64,000 nt of DNA from Candidatus Kapaibacterium sp. Lineage in GTDB: Bacteria; Bacteroidota; Ignavibacteria; Kapaibacteriales; UBA2268. Of this stretch, positions 32,834 to 34,724 are shown piece by piece. The position numbers and the translations under genes were made by a program. The stretch lies in assembly GCA_026390695.1 (NCBI GenBank), contig JAPLFL010000095.1, positions 1-64,000 on the forward strand, read 5' to 3'. Numbering within the stretch: position 1 is the stretch's first letter; every line of letters begins with the position of its first letter. The notes beneath the pieces were generated by a model. That model was not told the DNA's origin and did not search any database. It saw only the letters and a program-made list of their open reading frames with translations.

Positions 32834-33304
32834 ATGGAAATAGGTGATATTATACCGGCATTTTCAGCCACTGCAGATGATGGATCAACAATTAGCAGCG
32901 AATCTTTAAGAAATAAATTAAATGTCATATATTTTTATCCTAAGGACAATACAAGCGGTTGTACTCAAGAAGCATGTGACTTTAGGGATAATATGGTAAG
33001 GATTAGCGGGTTGGGAGTTAATCTTATCGGAGTTAGCCCTGATAGCGTTAAATCACATTCAGGATTTATCCAAAAATACGGATTGAATTTCAAATTGATT
33101 GCCGATGTAAATAAAGATTTATGTAATTTATTTTCTGTTATGGGCGAAAAATCCTTATATGGCAGGAAATATATGGGGGTGATCAGATCTACGTTTCTAA
33201 TAAATTCCGAGCTTGAAGTTCTTTATAAATGGACTAAAGTCAAGGTTAGTGGCCATGTTGATGAGATTATTTCAAAGATACAAGAAATAAATAAAAATGA
33301 TTGA
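32834..33304 (+). CDS. bcp: Thioredoxin-dependent thiol peroxidase (Bcp/PrxQ peroxiredoxin)
   Basis: It reduces hydroperoxides. The peroxidatic Cys43 and resolving Cys48 lie in the PrxQ signature YPKDNTSGCTQEACDFRD. Downstream are GVSPDSVKSHSGFIQKYGLN, FKLIADVNKDLCNLF, and GVIRSTFLINSE. The length of 156 residues is typical. A G-rich ribosome-binding region (GGGAGGGG) lies before the ATG. The last eight bases overlap the start of the TatD frame, so the two are translationally coupled. Confidence 0.95.
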   Translation: MEIGDIIPAFSATADDGSTISSESLRNKLNVIYFYPKDNTSGCTQEACDFRDNMVRISGLGVNLIGVSPDSVKSHSGFIQKYGLNFKLIADVNKDLCNLFSVMGEKSLYGRKYMGVIRSTFLINSELEVLYKWTKVKVSGHVDEIISKIQEINKND

Positions 33305-34724
33305 TACACACGCTCACATTGATACCACTACTTTCGACAATGACAGGGACGAGATGCTTCAAAGAGCCTTCAGTGCTGGTATTGAAAATATCATTATTCC
33401 TTCAATTGAACCGGAAACATTTGATAAAGTTTATATTTCTGCCGGACTAAGTGATAAAATATTTTGTGGAATCGGCATTCATCCTCACTATGCTAAGACT
33501 GTTAATACTGATTCATTAACAGAAATTGAAAATCGTTCATTTCACCCCAAAACCATTGCAATAGGAGAGATTGGTCTTGATTACTATTATGATTTCGCTC
33601 CGAAAAATATTCAGATTAACGCATTCAGAGATCAATTGGAAATAGCAAAGTCAAGGAAATTGCCTGTAATTGTTCATAACAGAGAATCGGATCGTGATTT
33701 GATGGAAAACCTGAAATCAGCTCAGAACGGGGATTTGCAGGGAGTTTTACATTGTTTTTCAGGTGATAAAAATACTTTGAAACAAGCCATGGATTTAGGT
33801 TTTTATATATCTTTCACTGGAAATATTACTTTCAAAAAAAGTACATTATCTGACATAGTAGAAATTTGTCCGGTTGACCGTTTCATGTTGGAAACAGATT
33901 GCCCATGGATGGCTCCCATACCTAATCGTGGCAAAAGAAACGAACCATCTTTATTGTATTTAATTGCAGAAAAAGTTTCAGAAATAAAAAAAATCACAAC
34001 TCATGAGGTTATAGAAATGACAAACAATAATGCAAGAAAACTTTTTGGATTACTTATTGTTATGTTTATTATTTTTTTAAATTCAAACAAGTCAATATCA
34101 CAAACCACAGATTCGACTCAATCAGACACAGTTTCCAAAGTTCTACAAATTGAAAATCCTTATGAAAAGAAAGTTGGAATTAGCTTTTTATTAGGTTTGA
34201 ATACGAACATTGCAACTCAAAAATATGGGAAGAATCAGCAATCAAAAATTAATATTACTTATGAGGGTTTGGTGAGCTATGGAGGCGCAATATCCTTTTT
34301 CCCATTTGATTTTCTTGAACTTGAAGCTACTTATTTTTATACCAAAAATCAGAAAATTGCAGATGAAAATCCTCCGTTTGTTAAGCCATTTAAATACCAT
34401 ACAGTTGAATTCGGGTCACATTGGCTTGTTAATCCATTTTCAAGAATTAGTATTTTCGGCACTATCGGTGCTTCATATATGCGATCAATTGAGTTGACAG
34501 AACATTCCAATTATGCAGTGAATACCGGTTTAGGTATAAATATTAATATCCCATTTGCTTATGGACAATTTGTCCCAGTGCTCGAATGGAGACTTGATTT
34601 TTTTGTTAATGAATATGTCGGAAGTGCTATTTTAGTGAAAGGTAAGCCACCTGAGCCGGATGTTCATACTTCAAACTTCTTTTCGTTCCCAAGATTCGGT
34701 CTCTTTTATTACCCTAAATTTTAA
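33297..34724 (+). CDS. TatD-family metal-dependent hydrolase fused in frame to an outer-membrane barrel
   Basis: 475 residues in one uninterrupted frame. Residues 1-251 are a complete TatD DNase-type hydrolase: metal-binding THAHID (His5, His7), Glu91 (IGEIGLDYYYD), His127 (VIVHNRES), His152 (LHCFSGD), Asp201 (LETDCPWMAP), and the usual C-terminal end NNNARKLFG. Where such proteins normally stop, the frame continues through a hydrophobic stretch (GLLIVMFIIFLNS) into a beta-rich region (about 280-475) ending in YYPKF. A C-terminal Phe is typical of outer-membrane barrels. A cytoplasmic DNase joined to an exported barrel is unexpected; see the internal start at 34017. Confidence 0.85.
   Translation: MIDTHAHIDTTTFDNDRDEMLQRAFSAGIENIIIPSIEPETFDKVYISAGLSDKIFCGIGIHPHYAKTVNTDSLTEIENRSFHPKTIAIGEIGLDYYYDFAPKNIQINAFRDQLEIAKSRKLPVIVHNRESDRDLMENLKSAQNGDLQGVLHCFSGDKNTLKQAMDLGFYISFTGNITFKKSTLSDIVEICPVDRFMLETDCPWMAPIPNRGKRNEPSLLYLIAEKVSEIKKITTHEVIEMTNNNARKLFGLLIVMFIIFLNSNKSISQTTDSTQSDTVSKVLQIENPYEKKVGISFLLGLNTNIATQKYGKNQQSKINITYEGLVSYGGAISFFPFDFLELEATYFYTKNQKIADENPPFVKPFKYHTVEFGSHWLVNPFSRISIFGTIGASYMRSIELTEHSNYAVNTGLGININIPFAYGQFVPVLEWRLDFFVNEYVGSAILVKGKPPEPDVHTSNFFSFPRFGLFYYPKF
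34017..34724 (+). CDS. Probable separately initiated outer-membrane beta-barrel protein (in-frame, within the TatD frame)
   Basis: An in-frame ATG at residue 241 of the TatD frame is preceded by GAGG (34005-34008) with eight bases of spacing, a good Shine-Dalgarno. Translation from it gives a 235-residue protein whose first 30 residues make a normal signal peptide: MTNNNARKLFG (basic), LLIVMFIIFLNS (hydrophobic), then NKSISQ. The mature part has alternating barrel strands (VGISFLLGLNTNI, FLELEATYFYTKNQK, RISIFGTIGASYMRS, GQFVPVLEWRLDFFV) and a C-terminal Phe. It may be the main way the barrel is made; this is inferred from sequence alone. Confidence 0.55.
   Translation: MTNNNARKLFGLLIVMFIIFLNSNKSISQTTDSTQSDTVSKVLQIENPYEKKVGISFLLGLNTNIATQKYGKNQQSKINITYEGLVSYGGAISFFPFDFLELEATYFYTKNQKIADENPPFVKPFKYHTVEFGSHWLVNPFSRISIFGTIGASYMRSIELTEHSNYAVNTGLGININIPFAYGQFVPVLEWRLDFFVNEYVGSAILVKGKPPEPDVHTSNFFSFPRFGLFYYPKF

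Follow-up and report, generated by a model that had tools for sequence, protein, structure and literature searches.

A single uninterrupted open reading frame (ORF) of 475 codons (positions 33297–34724, plus strand) was analyzed in the window, i.e., the whole stretch of 64,000 nucleotides at the start of contig JAPLFL010000095.1 from Candidatus Kapaibacterium sp. The frame contains, in this order, a TatD DNase domain, a Sec-type signal peptide and a predicted 8-stranded OmpA/OmpX-like barrel, and relatives show the same architecture. Judged by comparison with these relatives, the frame probably encodes two nested products, the second of which would start at an in-frame ATG within the last codons of TatD.

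TatD Domain, Signal Peptide and Predicted Barrel in One Frame

First, residues 1–251 (33297–34049) were compared with known families. They matched PF01026 (Pfam TatD_DNase; 2e-77, 260 bits versus a cut-off of 27) and TIGR00010 (251 bits versus a cut-off of 206). The metal ligands H5, H7, E91, H127, H152 and D201 were invariant among 30 orthologues, in agreement with the preliminary description, which had reported all metal-binding motifs of TatD. By these matches, the domain is a full-length member of the TatD DNase family and a predicted nuclease. It is the only TatD match in the host genome (4.63 Mb, 129 contigs).

Second, residues 241–268 (34017–34100) resemble a signal peptide, with a basic n-region, a hydrophobic core, small residues at −3 and −1 and a predicted cut at SIS|Q269. 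This stretch would be used twice, since it begins with the C-terminal end of TatD (MTNNNARKLFG). Its features recur in 80 barrel-fused relatives: the mean Kyte-Doolittle hydrophobicity after the residues LF was 2.65, as compared to 0.23 in TatDs fused to a radical SAM domain, and the net charge ahead of the hydrophobic segment was about +2. A small residue followed by Gln was found at the predicted cut in 74 of the 80. This agrees with the Q-rule reported for Bacteroidetes, by which cutting with signal peptidase I leaves a Gln exposed; the Q-value is 77% in Ignavibacterium album, too (PMC5837995).

Third, the remainder (34101–34721) was predicted to form a mature outer-membrane barrel of the OmpA/OmpX/OmpW type with an N-terminal linker. 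Residues 293–473 were modelled by AlphaFold2 as a closed 8-stranded barrel with amphipathic strands and a terminal Phe (mean predicted local distance difference test score of 87.6); a full-length model was also made. Foldseek matched the barrel model to OmpA (E 3.5e-7) as well as to NspA, OmpX and OmpW. Searches of residues 241–475 against Pfam and NCBIfam returned no family match, and the sequence did not place the barrel in the OmpA, OmpX or OmpW family. The proposal of a complete TatD running without a stop into a signal-like stretch and a barrel ending in Phe was borne out by the 475 open codons, the PF01026 match and the AlphaFold2 model.

The Open Junction Is Shared by the Relatives

The junction was open in all 80 barrel-fused relatives examined, including dozens of genomes at 40–49% protein identity. 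The preliminary description had considered a stop codon between the two parts in orthologues; none was seen. A sequencing error, a missed stop or a recent stop loss at the junction was thereby ruled out.

A barrel start within codons required by TatD would lock the frame open, since an intervening stop would truncate the barrel. A missing stop is expected under a nested start and under a fusion alike and, therefore, nucleotide-level evidence was needed to separate them. In particular, the frame might be a polyprotein without a functional internal start, all barrel being released from the 475-residue precursor through cutting of a signal-anchor by signal peptidase I. The frame being open in all relatives fits this explanation, but in-frame nesting forces an open frame anyway.

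A Candidate Shine-Dalgarno Sequence and Start Codon Are Conserved within the TatD Codons

The candidate Shine-Dalgarno (SD) sequence GAGGT (34005–34009) lies within the codons for Glu237 and Val238, and the candidate start of the nested barrel product is the in-frame ATG of Met241 (34017–34019). Eight bases separate GAGG (34005–34008) from the ATG, as had been pointed out before with correct coordinates; counted from GAGGT, the spacing is 7 bases.

A general synonymous-conservation scan was overdispersed and uninformative at the junction and, therefore, a codon-by-codon enrichment test was adopted and calibrated across all columns (1326 tests). Although these genes favour GAA, the Glu237 codon was GAG in 24 of 27 relatives of the window's family, with 5.6 expected (P ~4e-15). 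This was the strongest codon bias among the 1326 column tests (10^-14.4; runner-up 10^-6.3). In the GAG-before-G context, the counts were 24/26 at the site as compared to 68/332 elsewhere in the same genes; thus, this sequence context does not explain the bias. Where residue 237 was Gln or Lys (L019, L033, L037, L162 and L173), AGGT was retained.

The candidate start codon behaved similarly. Met241 was present in 28 of 32 members of the window's family, as compared to 4/85 plain TatDs and 0/21 radical-SAM-fused TatDs. With any Met at 239–241 counted, the values were 29/32 and, for TatDs without a barrel, 4/106. By this comparison, the in-frame start codon is conserved and is not shared by homologues that lack the second product.

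For the SD-ATG pair, expectations were obtained by recoding each peptide with the synonymous codons of its own gene. In the window's family, 31 of 33 genes carried the pair, with 9.2 expected (P 6e-17). Family f2 had it in 9/9 genes (1.6 expected; P 5e-8), and families f3, f8, f9 and f10 together in 10/14 (3.8 expected; P 1e-4). In comparison, the pair occurred in 1/85 plain TatDs and in 0/21 radical-SAM-fused TatDs. A scan of named genomes with the whole alignment had yielded mainly plain TatDs, which were used as controls. As the genomes share ancestry, the P values are guides, and the calibration over 1326 columns, to which this shared ancestry applies equally, and a set thinned to <60% identity are safer measures; in the latter, the pair was found in 24/26 genes versus 7.0 expected (P 5e-13). 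In L016, L020 and L068, which lack Met241, GAGGTT...ATG was found eight codons upstream with the 7-base spacing preserved. These data indicate that a ribosome-binding site is under nucleotide-level selection in the window's family, f2 and f3/f8/f9/f10 only. The internal start at 34017 with nested products, as proposed in the preliminary description, is supported by the GAG bias, by the joint conservation and relocation of SD and ATG, and by the lack of such a pair in barrel-free TatDs as a group.

The 3' end of the host 16S rRNA carries an intact anti-SD sequence (GGATCACCTCCTT). Nevertheless, gene starts in the window (48 ORFs) showed no SD enrichment (mean of −1.45 versus −1.41 kcal/mol for random sequence), and the TatD start at 33297 has no SD; thus, the internal site stands out. 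Judged by the selection on this site, the ribosomes of the lineage may be able to use the SD at 34005.

A slowing of ribosomes has been proposed for SD-like sequences that lie within reading frames. The internal sequence might, accordingly, be a translational pause that aids co-translational targeting of the long form rather than a start site, and its position directly ahead of the signal-like segment fits such a role. An ATG is not required for a pause, but it is conserved together with the SD at 7-base spacing and relocates with it; Met at 239–241 is also enriched in families f13 and f19 (14/16) despite the absence of an SD there. A pause was, thus, considered a poor explanation. In most members of f19, the conserved ATG lies two codons upstream (Met239), without an SD.

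Several observations weigh against an internal start. The SD-ATG pair was found in none of the eight genomes of families f4–f7 (0/8), and f13 and f19 lack it as well. The eight f4–f7 genomes have no Met at 239–241 and no SD-start pair even when GTG and TTG are allowed, while the hydrophobic signal segment is kept. Thus, an internal start is not universal; by these comparisons, conservation of the SD-type start is confined to the window's family, f2 and the majority of f3/f8/f9/f10. In f4–f7, the barrel may be supplied by the long form or by an unrecognised start. The synonymous-conservation scan was too noisy to pick out the junction. Moreover, SD duplex energies per gene were modestly better than those of recoded controls (median fraction of 0.16), so that the strength of the case rests on joint conservation across genomes. 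It has been reported that ribosomes of the related Bacteroidia fail to recognise SD sequences owing to sequestration of the 16S tail; for Chlorobia, the same source calls inhibition of the tail unclear (PMC9976891).

The f4–f7 genomes, together with the signal peptidase cutting known for RsiP and RsiV, which have cytoplasmic N-terminal parts (PMC8844934), are also the points in favour of a polyprotein as the only source of barrel. A polyprotein does not account, however, for what is seen in the window's family, namely the GAG bias, the conservation of Met241 and the relocation of both together. As the sole source it is, hence, improbable, though the most serious of the alternatives weighed here, and two nested products remain the preferred interpretation for the window. 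The f4–f7 genomes that keep the TatD-signal-barrel frame are L163 (f4), L154, L161 and L165 (f5), L159 (f6), and L153, L155 and L158 (f7).

Distribution of the Fusion in the Class

A match to the frame was obtained in 58 of 60 relatives, nearly all of them full-length and free of internal stops. Among 197 genomes of the class, the one-frame arrangement of TatD, signal and barrel was present in family f13 as well as in every genome searched from the window's order. A named relative that groups by sequence with the window's family, Ignavibacteriae bacterium HGW-Ignavibacteriae-4 (NCBI phylum Ignavibacteriota), has the fused form. In family f19 (L050, L051, L067 and L187–L194), the order is TatD, signal peptide, charged coiled coil and barrel, with about 600 residues in total. 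Comparison by hhalign gave this barrel a probability of 93% with the f13 barrel and of 14.5% with that of f1; it is probably a distant relative of the others.

Searched with the barrel profile, neither the class nor 296 genomes of the phylum yielded a clearly unfused barrel. Every confident match fell inside a TatD frame, and the sole additional match, G299, was weak (E 9e-4, near the threshold). Since the fusion is ancient and was never split wherever the barrel was detected, TatD and barrel could conceivably stay joined as a true bifunctional protein, such as a nuclease that is tethered to the membrane and cooperates with the barrel. This is very unlikely: TatD itself lacks an export signal, no outer-membrane barrel can retain an N-terminal domain in the cytoplasm, and the predicted cut site is a conserved feature.

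Fusions of TatD to a radical SAM domain (TIGR04038) occur in many further families of the class, and some families carry plain TatD. The radical SAM domain is not present after the TatD of the window and was found in sister families. In L048, L049, L052–L061 and L064, a TIGR04038-type domain is fused in frame directly after the LFGI end. Thus, one junction took two unrelated C-terminal partners within one class.

In a TatD tree, the window's order, f13 and f19 fell into one poorly resolved group together with the plain TatDs of families f11, f26 and f27, so that one or several fusion origins are possible. A separate barrel gene was looked for near the plain TatDs of f11/f26/f27 (L209–L215) and was not seen; the genes that follow them, read by eye, are LptB-type ATPase-like, ApaG-like and ClpC-like. 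Either the barrel part was lost in these families, or they represent the ancestral unfused state.

Upstream Gene

An ORF of 156 amino acids lies directly upstream of the long frame (32834–33304, plus strand) and, by inspection of its sequence alone, appears to be a Bcp/AhpC-type peroxiredoxin. At its stop, it shares 8 bases with the start of TatD (ATGATTGA). This ORF has the strongest SD-like sequence of the window (AAGGGGGAGGGG), where most genes have none.

Proposed Model of Expression

Initiation at 33297 yields TatD and, as no stop follows, continues through the signal peptide into the barrel to give the 475-residue precursor. Initiation at ATG 34017 by means of GAGGT at 34005, for which the selection on the start speaks, would yield a barrel precursor of 235 residues with an ordinary N-terminal signal peptide. 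Export of this short precursor would proceed through Sec, with a cut in front of Gln269 and assembly of the barrel in the outer membrane. Keeping the internal start may allow the cell to produce more barrel than nuclease.

Since the frame has no internal stop and the genome no second TatD, each TatD molecule must first arise as the long form. The preliminary description had left a choice between a barrel made mainly from the internal start and an additional long form. The internal start was supported, whereas the choice fell away because the long form is obligatory. In the long form, the hydrophobic segment preceded by Arg and Lys would probably act as a signal-anchor, as basic residues at this position favour TatD staying inside, in the cytoplasm. 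A cut by signal peptidase I at SIS|Q269 would then free the barrel and leave TatD with a short membrane-embedded tail. The expectation that an internal signal peptide would not normally export the barrel has to be qualified, since cutting by signal peptidase is known for single-pass proteins whose N-terminal domain lies in the cytoplasm, for example RsiP and RsiV (PMC8844934); this precedent and the basic residues make processing of the long form plausible.

A broader proposal is that the arrangement is ancient and order-wide, with the C-terminal codons of TatD serving as the n-region for export, SD-driven synthesis of free barrel, and an obligatory precursor split by signal peptidase into barrel and membrane-tethered TatD. 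This is put forward tentatively, as a possibility somewhat short of probable. If true, the locus would combine a bacterial polyprotein with a nested gene, in a lineage that seemingly hardly uses SD sequences.

Comparison with Known Systems

No report of a TatD-barrel fusion was found in the open-access literature searched, nor was a precedent for a short unrelated exported barrel that begins among the final codons of an enzyme of the cytosol. Internal in-frame starts usually yield trimmed versions of one protein; here, an unrelated exported protein would arise from the tail of a housekeeping enzyme. The locus offers two natural tests: whether ribosomes of the Ignavibacteria type use SD pairing at selected sites although genes rarely carry an SD, and whether signal peptidase processes a precursor of a cytosolic enzyme and an outer-membrane protein in bacteria. 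Automatic annotation would name one 475-residue "TatD family hydrolase" and can, thus, hide a predicted outer-membrane protein across the whole order.

The predicted barrel resembles OmpA, OmpX, OmpW and NspA in its 8 strands and terminal aromatic residue. It differs from them in matching no Pfam or NCBIfam family and in being encoded within a TatD frame in every confident match. The TatD-radical SAM fusions (TIGR04038, tatD_link_rSAM) likewise carry a second C-terminal domain in frame just after LFGI in TatDs of the same class. However, their partner is a radical-SAM enzyme, no signal peptide is present, and the internal SD-ATG pair is lacking. RsiP, RsiV and LtaS are similar to the predicted long form in that an internal hydrophobic segment is followed by a type I cut site and the N-terminal part stays in or at the membrane; unlike it, they contain no outer-membrane barrel and have no link to a nested start.

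With regard to the internal start, the bacterial N-terminal proteoforms of SsaQ, CcmM, CheA, InfB and ClpB also arise from internal in-frame starts and give functional short forms (PMC11005335). There, the short form is the same protein truncated, and signals are found on the longer forms (OmpX, PagC), whereas in the window the signal would start the short form alone. Mycobacteriophage Ms6 lysA/lysA241 (PMC3111421) is likewise an in-frame embedded gene with its own internal SD and two products. Both Ms6 products are endolysins that share a domain, whereas the short product of the window would be an exported barrel, unrelated to the cytosolic enzyme with whose end its signal overlaps.
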